Source of the DNA: a virus
Virus record (IMG/VR): IMGVR_UViG_3300007734_000699
Span: 1 to 45,101 of that record
DNA length: 45,101 bases
Strand: one strand, 5' to 3'
Shown here: one piece after another, positions 26,574 through 33,015 of the stretch
Numbering within the stretch: the stretch's first letter is position 1
Layout of the letters: every line of letters starts with the position of its first letter
Program-made: the position numbers and the translations under genes
Notes under the pieces: generated by a model
Told to the model about the DNA's origin: nothing
Databases searched by the model: none
What the model saw: the letters and a program-made list of their open reading frames with translations, nothing else

Positions 26574-26660
26574 GTTTCTGCTGTCCTCAGCGCATCCCTA
26601 TCTGACAGCGACAACACCGGGCGGGAACCGGCAGAGATGCGCGACGAAGCGCCCGCGAAG

Positions 26661-26699
26661 AGAAAAGAGGCGGGGCCACGGCTATCTGCCGCAGCCCCG
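26661..26699 (-). terminator. Rho-independent terminator behind the major capsid gene
   Basis: On the minus strand a 12-base-pair stem (10 Watson-Crick pairs plus two central G-U) with an AGATA loop occupies 26699-26671 and is followed by CCTCTTTTCT. It lies in the 137-base gap between the capsid stop (26711) and the next start (26573). It would set capsid mRNA above that of the downstream connector and tail genes. Confidence 0.72.
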
Positions 26700-28226: not shown

Positions 28227-28357
28227 GTCACACCCACGCGCATACAGCGCCATGAGAACACGTGACGTGGTTCGGGATTTGATCAGGCCAATGCGCGGGT
28301 TCCGATCCGTGACCGATGCGCTGGCCGAAGACGCCCGTTGGACTCGGCGGCAGTCTG

Positions 28358-28404
28358 TGTGGTGACCGGGTGGCACAGCGTGTGTGTCACCACAACACAC
28401 ACGC
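28358..28404 (-). promoter_or_regulatory. Two mutually exclusive hairpins in the capsid mRNA leader
   Basis: Hairpin 1: a perfect 10-base stem (28404-28395 with 28387-28378) with loop TGTGGTG. Hairpin 2: a perfect 9-base stem, TGTGGTGAC (28394-28386) with GTCACCACA (28366-28358). The loop and first stem-end bases of hairpin 1 form the 5' arm of hairpin 2, so both cannot form at once. Hairpin 1 starts about four bases after the predicted transcription start. Confidence 0.6.
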
Positions 28405-28414
28405 CGGTAGTTTC

Positions 28415-28443
28415 GTTATACGCGAAGTGCCTTACAAAGTCAA
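28415..28443 (-). promoter_or_regulatory. Sigma-70-type promoter for the capsid genes
   Basis: TTGACT (28443-28438) and TATAAC (28420-28415) on the minus strand, separated by exactly 17 bases; five of six consensus bases match in each box. The likely start is near 28408, giving a leader of about 180 bases. It lies in the only sizeable gap of the head operon. Confidence 0.72.
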
Positions 28444-28448
28444 GCGCT

Positions 28449-28949
28449 TTACGCGGTTTCTTCCAGCTCGAGATCCGATCCGCGCGAGGTCTTGATGTCC
28501 ATCTGCGACGATTCGTAGACCGCATCACCGGCCTGTGAGCCGAATTTCACCGCGGTTTCCTGTGCGGCGGCTTCTTTCAGCTTCTTGCCGCTCACGCCCT
28601 GCTCGTTGAGACGCGTTTTGGCGTCCACGATGCGCTGGTAGTTGTCCGCGTGCATCTTCATCAGCACTTCGCGGCCGTTTTCGCCACGCACGAGACGCCC
28701 ATCCACCTCGCGGAGGCCGTATTCGTCGGGCGTGCCGTCCAATTCTTCGGGACGGACGAATTCCCAGCCCTTGACGTGCCGCATTTCGTGAATCCGACCG
28801 GCCCGCAGCTGGCTATCGACGATGCGGATCTCCCACGGGCCGCCCTCTTTGAGCGTGATTGCCACACTGGGCGAGCCAAACGGGTGCGCCAGGCGCCGAT
28901 CGATGACGTTGACGGTCGGTAACGGCTTACTTTCGGTCTTTTTAGCCAT
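28449..28949 (-). CDS. Head-operon hypothetical protein
   Basis: 166 residues. N-terminal basic tail (MAKKTESKPLP), then a beta-rich segment with GGPWEIRIVDSQLRAGRIHE and a helical, Lys-rich end. Stands between scaffold and the capsid promoter. Possibly an assembly or structural factor; no family recognised. Confidence 0.52.
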   Translation of the reverse strand: MAKKTESKPLPTVNVIDRRLAHPFGSPSVAITLKEGGPWEIRIVDSQLRAGRIHEMRHVKGWEFVRPEELDGTPDEYGLREVDGRLVRGENGREVLMKMHADNYQRIVDAKTRLNEQGVSGKKLKEAAAQETAVKFGSQAGDAVYESSQMDIKTSRGSDLELEETA

Positions 28950-28952
28950 GCG

Positions 28953-29831
28953 CTACTCCAAACTGTTCGCCTTGCCCGGTTCATACCGGCTGGCGATCTT
29001 TTCGTATTCTTTCGGGGTGATGTCGGCGGCCTGCCGGAACGCCTGCGCCGTGGCCGTGAGGACCGCGGGCTTCGAGCGATCCCCGCCCACGCTCTCCGTG
29101 ACGACCGGCGGCGGCGGCGCATTCACCGGGGCGCGGAAATTGCCGGCCATCACTGACTCGGCCAGCGCGACACGCCAGAGCACCCCCGCCACATCAGGAC
29201 GGGCGCTCATTTCCTTGGGCACAATCGACCAGACTTGCCGCAAGATGCCGGGGTCAACGCCCATCTTCTGCTTGTCCGCGTGGGCAATCGCCGCGGCCAG
29301 GTTCGCATTCGATTGCGCCACCGCCGTCTGTTCATGCAGCGGGGCCACCATCGCCTGCGCTTTGCGCTCCGCGAGGGATTCATTGCGGGCGGCAATGCGC
29401 TGGGCGCGGCCGGTGTCCGGTTTCCCTTCCGGTGTGTAGAGATCGAGCTCCTTGGCGTATTCGACCGCTTCCTGATCGCTCAGGGGGCCCGCGGGCGCCG
29501 GAGGCGGTGGGGCTTGCGGCTGGTAGAGTGCGCGCTGGATCAGCGGCTGGGCGGCTTGCCACTCGGCCACCACCTGATCCACCTTCTCGGCCTTCGGGCG
29601 GAGTTGTTCGATCTGCTGCTTGAGCGCTTGTTTCTCTTGACGCAGGGCGGACACCGCACTCAGCGGGACGAGCTTTTCCCCGCCTGGATTCACGACGGTG
29701 CCTTCAGGATCAGCATCGGCCGCCGCGACGGGCGCGGGCGGGTCGACGGGCGCAGGGGCTTGTGGTTCCGGCTCAGGGGCCGGTGTCGGGTCGTCTTCTA
29801 ATGACATCGCGCCGGCGGGCATTTCACTCAT
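28953..29831 (-). CDS. Scaffolding protein
   Basis: 292 residues; start overlaps the GroES-like stop (ATGA). An acidic Pro/Ala-rich N-terminal 45 residues, a coiled coil (SALRQEKQALKQQIEQL), a Pro-rich hinge and a helical C-terminal part ending with PKEYEKIASRYEPGKANS. Coiled, low-complexity, proline-rich proteins between portal and capsid genes are normally scaffolds that leave the shell during maturation. Confidence 0.65.
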   Translation of the reverse strand: MSEMPAGAMSLEDDPTPAPEPEPQAPAPVDPPAPVAAADADPEGTVVNPGGEKLVPLSAVSALRQEKQALKQQIEQLRPKAEKVDQVVAEWQAAQPLIQRALYQPQAPPPPAPAGPLSDQEAVEYAKELDLYTPEGKPDTGRAQRIAARNESLAERKAQAMVAPLHEQTAVAQSNANLAAAIAHADKQKMGVDPGILRQVWSIVPKEMSARPDVAGVLWRVALAESVMAGNFRAPVNAPPPPVVTESVGGDRSKPAVLTATAQAFRQAADITPKEYEKIASRYEPGKANSLE

Positions 29832-30112
29832 ACGGGCGGTTCTTCCTCATGCCAGATCGCTAAGAGTTCATCTTCGTGCAGCACCAGGTAGCGAATGCCC
29901 TGATACTCCATCACTTGACCCGCTTCGGGCGTAAATAACACCACGTCGCCGGTCTGCACATCCCGTACGCCGTCACCCGTTGCCGTGACGGTGCCGATCA
30001 CGTCCGGGCTATACGCCGACACCGCGATCAAGCCACTGGGCCGCGTGCGCTGGCTCTGATCTTCCGCGCGCACAATCACGCGATCCCCTCGGACCGCGAG
30101 TTCCACGTCCAT
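29828..30112 (-). CDS. GroES-like co-chaperonin
   Basis: 94 residues, the size of bacterial GroES. The order of the fold is visible: RGDRVIVRAEDQSQ for the first strands, a mobile-loop region with RTRPSGLIAVSAY, then DVIGTVTATGDGVRDVQTGDVVLF and the roof and closing strands GIRYLVLHEDELLAIW. The loop and length match Cpn10, which caps GroEL. T4 gp31 is the well-known phage counterpart, needed for folding a capsid protein. Here it sits between portal and scaffold, beside the capsid genes. Confidence 0.8.
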   Translation of the reverse strand: MDVELAVRGDRVIVRAEDQSQRTRPSGLIAVSAYSPDVIGTVTATGDGVRDVQTGDVVLFTPEAGQVMEYQGIRYLVLHEDELLAIWHEEEPPV

Positions 30113-30424: not shown

Positions 30425-32423
30425 TCGGCGGCGCTCCTTGCGGCGGCATCCCACCGCCCTGCATCATTTGCGCGATCTGGGGAGGCAGGCCCGGCGGCGG
30501 TCCGCCCGGACCCGGAGGCGCACCACCCGGCGGCATCCCCGGTGGCATCGGGGGCATCGCAATCACCGCCCACGGATCCGGCATCCCCGGCTGTGCGGTG
30601 CCGATCCACGCCTGCTTATCCGGCATGTTGAACAGGCGTAGCAACTGCTCGATCGCAGACTTCGCCGCTTCGGGATTGCGGCCAATCACCATCTGCATGG
30701 CCGGCCAAATCTTCACGGCTATGCCCAGCGCCTGCATGAACTGGATGTAATCCCCGCGCTGCTTACTCTTGTCCGAGGTTTCCGTGGAGCCACGCGGCTT
30801 GAACCGGAAGGTGCCTTCCAGCATCTCGGGGCGGATCGTCGCGGTGTCCACCTGGCCGCCGCGCTGCTCGAGGCCAGGCACCAGCGCTTGCGGCATCGGC
30901 ATGCCGTCTTCGCCGTATTCCTTGATGCAGTTGATCCAGATCGCCTGCCGGACCTGCCCCAAGTCTTCGAGCGATTCCTGCAGGTTCTTGATCACTTCGT
31001 CCATACGGACAAAGGACTGTTCGGCCACGAGATTCACTTCGCCCAGCGTGCGCGAGTTCTCCGGCACTTGGCCGAGGGCCACATCGTTGATACCCGCCAC
31101 CCGCTCCGACGCCTGGACAATCTCCTGCTCCCGCGAGATCGCCCCATTCATCGCCGGCGCGATCTGCATGGACTCGATCTCTTTCATGTCCCGCACATCG
31201 ATCACGGCGCGCGGGCCCAGGGGCTGCAGGTCTTGATCCCACAGGGCACCCGTCAGGCGCTTGATCGGCGCGGAGATTTCGAGACTCGCTCGATCCGCCA
31301 GCATGTTGCGCCAGGCCGTGTGCTCTTCGATGGTCGTGATCAGCTTGTGGCCGATGTAGGAGTAGCCCTCGTGTGACTTGTCCGAGCGCGGGAAGGGCAC
31401 GAACAGGATGTAACGGTGCGTGGCGTGGTCTTCATGCACCAGCCGCAGGAGCGTATTGCTCGGCACATGGATGGTGGCGACATACCAGCGCAACCCGTCG
31501 CCCAAGTCTTTGAGCAGCTGCACTTCCCACAGTTCCTTTTCGGCGGTGTCGCCTTCTTGGCTCGCCACCGGCTCGGGATTGCCGCTCAGCGTGCGCTCGG
31601 AGCTCACATCGTTGGTGTCGTGGAGACTCTTGACCGCTGCCGGGTCGTAGATACCGCGTTCGGCGTCCGCCTGCAGTAAGTCCCAGCGCTTCGTGAACTT
31701 CTTGGCGTAGCCCCAGATGTCCGCCTTCTCTTTCGCGTGCGAGGGTAGGACGAGGAATTGCCGCGACGGGAGCACTCGATAGCCCGGCCCCTTCCGTACC
31801 CGCTCCGGCGCGTCAATCACCACTTCGGCGGAGGGAATACTGGGATCGTTCACTTCGATGAAGTTGCCCTGCGCGTCCTTCGCAAAGACCGGCTGGAACT
31901 TCTCATCGAGGATCGGCGCGCTGTCCTGCGTCACCTGCACCTGCGCGCGGATGGCCTTCCGCACGGTGCGATAGGTCGTGTCTTCGTAGACCTCGAGGCA
32001 GCCGCGGGTTTCAATCAGCGCGGCCTGAATAGCGCGGGCCAGGAACGACTGGAGCCCTTCGCTCTCCGCCTGCCACTGATGGAACTCTTCCACGAATGGG
32101 GCTTTCTTGGCCGAGTCGCCCCAGCCTTCCACCGTCCAGATCGGATCCACCATCACGGTCCGCATGATGCGGGCGCGCAGGGCGTCCACCTTCTCGGTGC
32201 CGAGATAGCTGGTCAGATCCGCGGCGTCCTGCCACGGCATCGACTGACTCGATCGCGTCCGCCCCTGTTCGTAGAGCGTCCACCAGTACTCAACTTCCGG
32301 CAGCGGCACGGAACGCGCCGAGTCAGCGTTAAGCACTTCCTGGCACAGCCAGTTGGTGAAGTCGGCCTTCTTGGGTTCGGCCAGCTTCACATCCCACGGA
32401 GTTTTCTTAGTTGGTTGCGCCAT
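30414..32423 (-). CDS. Portal protein
   Basis: 669 residues, in the size range of P22-like and related podovirus portals. The body is long and mixed alpha/beta: DAADLTSYLGTEKVDALRAR near the N-terminus, then SRQFLVLPSHAKEKADIWGY, a region around MNGAISREQEIVQASER and a long helical C-terminal part. It ends in a Pro/Gly/Met-rich tail of about 55 residues (PPGMPPGGAPPGPGGPP), probably disordered. Genomic context agrees: terminase upstream, scaffold and capsid downstream. It forms the dodecameric DNA gate. Confidence 0.82.
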   Translation of the reverse strand: MAQPTKKTPWDVKLAEPKKADFTNWLCQEVLNADSARSVPLPEVEYWWTLYEQGRTRSSQSMPWQDAADLTSYLGTEKVDALRARIMRTVMVDPIWTVEGWGDSAKKAPFVEEFHQWQAESEGLQSFLARAIQAALIETRGCLEVYEDTTYRTVRKAIRAQVQVTQDSAPILDEKFQPVFAKDAQGNFIEVNDPSIPSAEVVIDAPERVRKGPGYRVLPSRQFLVLPSHAKEKADIWGYAKKFTKRWDLLQADAERGIYDPAAVKSLHDTNDVSSERTLSGNPEPVASQEGDTAEKELWEVQLLKDLGDGLRWYVATIHVPSNTLLRLVHEDHATHRYILFVPFPRSDKSHEGYSYIGHKLITTIEEHTAWRNMLADRASLEISAPIKRLTGALWDQDLQPLGPRAVIDVRDMKEIESMQIAPAMNGAISREQEIVQASERVAGINDVALGQVPENSRTLGEVNLVAEQSFVRMDEVIKNLQESLEDLGQVRQAIWINCIKEYGEDGMPMPQALVPGLEQRGGQVDTATIRPEMLEGTFRFKPRGSTETSDKSKQRGDYIQFMQALGIAVKIWPAMQMVIGRNPEAAKSAIEQLLRLFNMPDKQAWIGTAQPGMPDPWAVIAMPPMPPGMPPGGAPPGPGGPPPGLPPQIAQMMQGGGMPPQGAPPNGR

Positions 32424-33015
32424 CCTGTCTCACAAGTAAAGCGACGTAGTAAAACGGCCGCCGCGGGTCGGTGCAGTTCGTGGCGGGTTTCGGAATCCAG
32501 CCGGACACGGGTTGGTCGGTGTAGCCCAACACGTCATGCGGGCCGAAGCGCTCGAGCAGGCTCTGATCGTCATACACTCGGCACTTGGTGCCATAGACGA
32601 AGTAGCCTTCCGGGGCATACGGCACATCCACATAGATAAAGCCACCAGGCAGCAGGTGATCGCGCAGCCGCTGCATTACCTTGACATCGCCATACGGGTC
32701 GAGCGGATCGCGCTCGTAGTTGCCCAGCCCGATATGCTCAATGGACGACAGGCCGACGAACGCATGCGCGCACGGCAGGGGCGCCACCCGCACATCCCCG
32801 CGATCCACGCAGGGCCGCGGCACTTCCCGCCAATCAATCCCGCGGACCGCCACGCTCGGCGCCAGCGCCTGCACCCGCTCGATCCAATCCGTATCCTTCG
32901 CGCCAATCTCGTAGAGGATGGAGCCCTCTGCCAGCGTCGGCAGGAGCGGATTCGCCAGCGTGAACAGCTTCAAGCCGGGATCGTCGCCGTCGTACGTCCA
33001 GTCAGGCAGGAACAT
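32407..33015 (-). CDS. DUF268-like SAM-dependent methyltransferase
   Basis: 202 residues. EGSILYEIGAKD near residue 31 resembles the nucleotide-binding motif, and VGLSSIEHIGLGNYERD followed by DPYGDVKVMQRL and LLPGGFIYVDVPY is the core of DUF268 methyltransferase-like proteins, which sit in glycan and polysaccharide gene sets. It interrupts the terminase-portal order of the virion operon. A role in modifying surface glycans is an inference from the family and from the sugar cassette. Confidence 0.72.
   Translation of the reverse strand: MFLPDWTYDGDDPGLKLFTLANPLLPTLAEGSILYEIGAKDTDWIERVQALAPSVAVRGIDWREVPRPCVDRGDVRVAPLPCAHAFVGLSSIEHIGLGNYERDPLDPYGDVKVMQRLRDHLLPGGFIYVDVPYAPEGYFVYGTKCRVYDDQSLLERFGPHDVLGYTDQPVSGWIPKPATNCTDPRRPFYYVALLVRQDGATN

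Follow-up and report, generated by a model that had tools for sequence, protein, structure and literature searches.

A covarying, putatively pseudoknot-forming RNA element at the predicted start of a phage capsid message

Comparative analysis of a 45,101-nucleotide (nt) stretch of DNA from an uncultured virus (IMG/VR record IMGVR_UViG_3300007734_000699, hereafter the window) shows that the leader of its capsid genes carries a pairing, on the minus-strand RNA, that is predicted to form a pseudoknot and has been conserved by selection in related phages. The element consists of a hairpin placed just after a promoter, together with a downstream arm complementary to the hairpin loop, and we regard this structure as very probably real and under selection. 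Capsid excess and timing in tailed phages are usually credited to promoters; the covariation described below shows that, in these uncultured phages, selection acts on the shape of the RNA where the capsid message is predicted to begin.

The capsid leader of the window

The original prediction for this locus described a near-consensus promoter with 17-base spacing, followed at once by a 10-base-pair (bp) hairpin whose loop pairs perfectly with a 9-base arm further downstream, and each of these elements was recovered in our analysis. The promoter, TTGACT-17-TATAAC, matches the consensus at 10 of 12 positions, and a stock promoter scan overlooked it solely because it required a T at the final position of the -10 box. 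The hairpin, GGCGTGTGTGT-TGTGGTG-ACACACACGCT (28405-28377, minus strand), contains ten perfect pairs and reaches 11 bp when one G-U is counted. The 9-base arm GTCACCACA (28366-28358) is complementary to TGTGGTGAC, that is, to the seven loop bases plus two bases of the stem, so the second helix (stem 2) would grow from 7 to 9 bp if the arm invaded the hairpin stem (stem 1) by two.

The checks proposed for this arrangement included secondary-structure prediction and a search for covariation. Minimum-energy folding of the 184-nt leader yielded an ordinary stability (z = -0.12). The combined score of the specific hairpin and arm exceeded that of all 60 dinucleotide shuffles. The evidence therefore lies in the specific element and its conservation and not in overall stability. 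When the window was scanned along its full length and on both strands at a fixed threshold, the capsid leader was the sole site returned. Since dozens of single-sequence matches occur elsewhere in the GC-rich relatives at a similar threshold (254 kb, both strands), the argument rests on positional conservation and covariation.

The pairing is maintained by compensatory changes

A megablast search of an annotated phage collection did not find a near-identical phage genome, and the resemblance to isolate phages was confined to distant capsid proteins (26-37% identity). From protein-guided searches of IMG/VR and genome contigs we obtained 42 distinct leaders with the same order of leader, virion protein (mostly 155-210 amino acids, aa) and capsid protein. 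Five relatives have the promoter, the hairpin and the pairing of loop with arm at the equivalent place, written in other letters: L033 (the same as L004/L007), L034 (L005), L035 (L006), L038 and L092. An 11-bp stem 1 can be drawn in all six phages, and the loop/arm pairs read TGTGGTG/CACCACA in the window, TGGTGTG/CACACCA in L033, TGATCTG/CAGATCA in L034, TGGTGTG/CACACCG in L035 (one G-U), GTGCAGGAGGT/GCCTCCTGCAC in L038 and GGCCAG/CTGGCC in L092.

Whole-knot MAFFT alignments put the arms wrongly, and covariation was consequently counted in a hand-set, ungapped alignment of the paired arms alone, covering five of the six sequences (L092, which MAFFT misplaced, was omitted for that reason). All 90 paired cells were kept, and both sides had changed at 14 of the 18 pairs. 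The resulting covariation score of 0.867 compares with 0.279 for shuffles, none of 500 of which matched it, and with at most 0.194 for slid partners, a strongly positive outcome for the proposed covariation check. Across all six sequences, the pairs include ten G-U combinations and no A-C, which indicates that the minus-strand RNA is what selection keeps.

A permissive scan added two looser knots at the corresponding place, in L070 (GCTCGCT/AGCGAGT) and L084 (GCGACTGT/ACAGTCGC). The leaders of L001, L002, L037, L039 and L040 hold short hairpins with possible loop-arm pairing; these did not beat shuffles, and we do not claim the long 5' knot for them.

The knot lies at a near-constant distance from the promoter

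The 17-nt spacing of the promoter is preserved in L033, L034 and L035, and L038 and L092 instead carry a promoter of the extended -10 type (TGnTAGACT). For both types, the gap between the -10 box and stem 1 is nearly constant, its length across the six phages being 9, 9, 9, 9, 10 and 9 nt. Initiation generally falls 6-8 nt past the -10 box, and, given this near-constant distance, the 5' end of the transcript is probably located some 2-4 nt ahead of stem 1. Counted from stem 1 as far as the ATG, the leaders compared span 179-267 nt.

Both helices most likely coexist

The hairpin and the loop-arm duplex had originally been taken as mutually exclusive structures, a view that our comparison suggests is probably wrong. 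Pairing of the loop bases is common to all the knot relatives, whereas its extension into the stem differs: the helix reaches 9, 9, 8 and 7 bp, and in L038 it is confined to the loop. An H-type pseudoknot, in which a hairpin loop pairs with a downstream strand and the loops are long enough for both stems to form, fits this pattern. The first feature is seen with compensatory changes in six phages; as to the second, published work sets 8 nt as the shortest loop able to cross an 11-bp stem 1 (PMC7618472), and the connecting loops measure 8, 9, 11, 11, 12 and 24 nt. With a 7-nt hairpin loop, one stem-2 pair would have to open, giving a 1-nt loop 1. By a rough energy estimate the knot is lower than the bare hairpin, or equal to it in L033, and nested alternatives that lack stem 1 are worse than those that keep it in five of the six. 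With lengths that satisfy the published minimum and rough energies that mostly favour the knot, the prediction is that stems 1 and 2 most likely coexist as an H-type pseudoknot.

Conserved elements downstream of the knot

The original prediction overlooked a second pseudoknot-like motif just downstream of the knot, as well as the discrete nature of the capsid unit. This element, motif B, is a hairpin with an invariant loop, GYCGCCG, followed by CGGGYG, and occurs in one to three copies per leader, several leaders having two or three. We counted 15 copies, all on the sense strand, distributed over nine clade-I relatives (L001, L002, L033-L035, L037, L038, L040 and L092), whose capsid leaders carry them 95-194 nt upstream of the start codon; outside the leaders, 254 kb of related loci held a single copy. 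The window has one copy, located in the leader. The stem of motif B covaries (0.651 versus 0.154, matched by none of 500 shuffles). Its loop CGCC stays complementary to GGYG, so a second helix is possible; being nearly invariant, this helix is unproven.

Closer to the start codon, the two strands of motif C are perfectly complementary in four clade-I relatives and weaker in the window, with one mismatch. Exact forms were found in 18 of the 42 leaders against 0.8 expected, preceding the start codon (for instance in L039, L044, L075 and L080), and the helix has a covarying core with the variants GGTTCGG/CCGAACC, GGTTGG/CCAACC, GGTCGG/CCGACC and GGTTGA/TCAACC. Beyond the known relatives, a DNA pattern scan for motif C returned just one chance coding match, in L032. 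In several leaders (such as L080, L070 and L075) the 3' strand adjoins or overlaps the sequence that can pair with the Shine-Dalgarno (SD) region. Hiding of the SD was weakly above chance over the leader set (combined p = 0.004), with most single leaders not significant, and we rejected general SD sequestration as a common property of these leaders given this weak support.

The capsid leaders of clade II carry a hairpin with a varying stem and an invariant 12-base loop, TTACTCCAGTGG (sites in Table 1).

A proposed role in shielding the capsid message

These observations can be assembled into a model in which the late promoter would give rise to a short mRNA that encodes the 193-aa virion protein and the major capsid protein and is closed by the strong 3' hairpin. 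About 2-4 nt from its first base, the mRNA would fold into an H-type pseudoknot with an 11-bp stem 1, a 6-7-bp stem 2 and a connecting loop of 8-24 nt. The knot would act as a structural 5' cap, so that pyrophosphohydrolase, 5'-sensing RNase E or RNase J would meet fewer unpaired 5' bases than they need, while the hairpin loop, pinned by stem 2, would make stem 1 harder to unwind, and the capsid message shielded in this way would be long-lived. Motif B could then be the site of a specific regulator, probably a protein (or else a ligand), and the region ahead of the start codon would set translation.

RppH enzymes are known to require unpaired 5' nucleotides, and the bla mRNA is stabilised by an added 5' hairpin (PMC3997798). 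The location of stem 1 suits a block to decay because it begins 9-10 nt past the -10 box in all six phages. The letters of the knot are free and its shape is fixed, a combination that suits a structural element better than a site of specific binding; motif B shows a fixed loop and a variable stem, a pattern that suits recognition by a protein or ligand. On these sequence-based arguments, we consider protection from 5'-end-dependent decay, at about even odds, the most likely main role of the knot.

Several points weigh against this proposal and the structure on which it builds. The covariation alignment was set by hand, with the stem-2 register of L038 picked by complementarity and L092 omitted; the clear examples number six and the looser ones two; and clade-II leaders begin with a different hairpin. 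Moreover, a plain 5' hairpin would suffice for protection, so that the conserved stem 2 needs a further reason, such as exonuclease resistance or protein binding.

More tentatively, the leaders may represent a new class of phage RNA, in which a sequence-free 5' pseudoknot cap and one to three motif B mini-pseudoknots (GYCGCCG...CGGGYG) would jointly sense the state of the capsid or the host and set both the life and the translation of the capsid mRNA.

Alternatives and relation to known RNA elements

By analogy, the leader pseudoknot of T4 gene 32 is the closest functional phage precedent for the capsid leader, and 5' stabilisers of the ompA type are the closest mechanistic one. The T4 knot lies 67 nt ahead of the start codon and is bound by the gene's own product, its mRNA is very stable, and according to a 2010 review it is possibly the sole viral pseudoknot serving translational autoregulation (PMC3014915). 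Like the T4 knot, the predicted capsid knot is of the H type, stands close to the 5' end of a phage message and precedes the gene for an essential, abundant protein. An autogenous operator of this kind, in which the knot and motif B would nucleate binding of a protein from the capsid unit until excess product covers the ribosome-binding site, is a conceivable but rather doubtful explanation. It would account for the length of the leaders, for their position directly upstream of the capsid genes and for the tandem copies of motif B, whose invariant loop resembles a protein site. Yet the sequence of the knot is not conserved, and no known RNA-binding domain was found among the family and profile matches of the 193-aa protein. 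The T4 operator also relies on an A+U-rich, unstructured region between knot and ribosome-binding site, over which protein spreads; the corresponding part of the capsid leader is rich in G+C and has predicted structure. The capsid leader further differs in its 11-bp, sequence-free stem 1 placed at the predicted transcript start, in the additional conserved motifs that follow, and in serving a capsid gene rather than that of a single-stranded DNA-binding protein.

A two-state switch, toggled by a ligand, temperature or protein between the hairpin and the loop-arm duplex, or between the motif C helix and a stem masking the ribosome-binding site, appears unlikely. The arm does invade the stem by 2 bp in the window and in L033, and the frequency of exact motif C helices and the contact of their 3' strand with the SD-pairing sequence would suit such a device. 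However, stem invasion is not conserved, the lengths of loops and stem fit coexistence, and SD hiding is, as described above, weakly above chance overall.

The put sites of HK022 consist of two adjacent hairpins with conserved bases and bring about antitermination. The capsid knot resembles them as a structured RNA with which a (late) phage transcript is predicted to begin, and a nascent 5' fold that binds RNA polymerase might act as a processive antitermination or elongation element; this is very improbable given that the unit is short and closed by a strong hairpin just beyond the capsid gene, and that, compared by anatomy alone, the knot lacks conserved bases. Least credible is a DNA-level dyad serving as a repressor or activator operator that overlaps the promoter start: inverted repeats do adjoin the promoter, but the G-U and A-C counts, the persistence of complementarity through changes of sequence, and the interleaving of two pairings whose spacer never falls below 8 nt, which is an RNA constraint, all speak against it.

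As in the ompA, papA and aprE type of 5' stabiliser, a stable stem would stand within a few nt of the (here predicted) transcript start of a highly expressed gene; in contrast to that type, a second helix, conserved by covariation, would hold the loop in place. The frameshift pseudoknot of coronaviruses (infectious bronchitis virus class) likewise combines an 11-bp stem 1 with a connecting loop no shorter than 8 nt. This likeness concerns fold class only, with no shared function, as the capsid knot lies outside the coding region and has no slippery site. Rfam 15 covariance models gave no match at the gathering score in the window and 20 related loci, and at E values up to 5 just two chance-level matches, both in L006. 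The literature we searched, with incomplete coverage, held no description of such capsid leaders. The knot module is small and could serve as a ready-made 5' cap for mRNAs.

The capsid unit and its genomic context

The head module of the window is coded on the minus strand in the order terminase large subunit, SU10-like portal, GroES-like co-chaperonin, two proteins without a family, leader, 193-aa protein and major capsid protein, and the gene upstream of the leader ends at 28449. The expectation that the leader precedes capsid genes was borne out by the 306-aa product, a Phage_capsid_4 major capsid protein. Its gene is followed by a strong hairpin in the window and in the relatives inspected.

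The start of the 193-aa protein was placed by aligning relatives, several of which have stops just before it; 2 of 12 members match phrog_1731 (virion structural protein). We also considered the leader as coding sequence, as the reading frame of the 193-aa gene extends without a stop back to GTG 28400. L001, L002 and other relatives, however, carry in-frame stops immediately before MADW/MAQW, and the leader is for this reason regarded as non-coding.

Table 1 Features of the capsid unit (window coordinates) and hairpin sites in clade-II leaders
Feature	Position	Strand	Remarks
Sigma-70-type promoter TTGACT-17-TATAAC	28415..28443	-	-35 box 28443-28438; 17-nt spacer; -10 box 28420-28415
Stem 1, 5' arm GGCGTGTGTGT	28395..28405	-	nine bases separate the -10 box from the arm
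Hairpin loop TGTGGTG, 5' arm of stem 2	28388..28394	-	
Stem 1, 3' arm ACACACACGCT	28377..28387	-	
Connecting loop, 12 nt	28365..28376	-	
Stem 2, 3' arm CACCACA	28358..28364	-	exact complement of the loop
Motif B	28332..28355	-	hairpin GACT-GCCGCCG-AGTC (28341-28355) and CGGGCG (28332-28337); loop CGCC can pair with GGCG
Motif C	28269..28308	-	GGATCGG (28308-28302) with CCGAACC (28275-28269); 6/7 pairs
Ribosome-binding region GTGGGTGTGAC	28227..28237	-	CCACG beside motif C can cover the region
Virion-type protein, 193 aa	27645..28226	-	opens the capsid unit; family unassigned; start ATG 28226
Major capsid protein, 306 aa	26711..27631	-	PF25209 Phage_capsid_4, 58.7 bits (cut-off 27); phrog_371
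Strong terminator-like hairpin	26671..26699	-	directly 3' of the capsid gene
Clade-II invariant-loop hairpin	L044 2287; L049 2283; L055 2266; L057 2287; L058 2301; L061 2298; L089 2303		

The capsid protein of L092 is 71% identical to that of the window and is encoded on a 3-kb contig within a metagenome-assembled genome of the Vicinamibacterales, a weak hint of acidobacterial hosts; a terminase search of that assembled genome found no match.

Past the terminator hairpin, a stretch at 26601-26643 (minus strand), CTGCCGGTTCC..GCCCGGT..GCTGTCA, is found again in L033-L035, where it sits within stems with compensatory changes as judged by eye, and may represent another leader RNA, serving the gene that follows. 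Elsewhere in the head module, the GroES-like co-chaperonin (29828-30112, minus strand; phrog_3188) is phage-encoded, and the gene between portal and terminase (32407-33015, minus strand) has a DUF268 match of 37.8 bits (cut-off 25).
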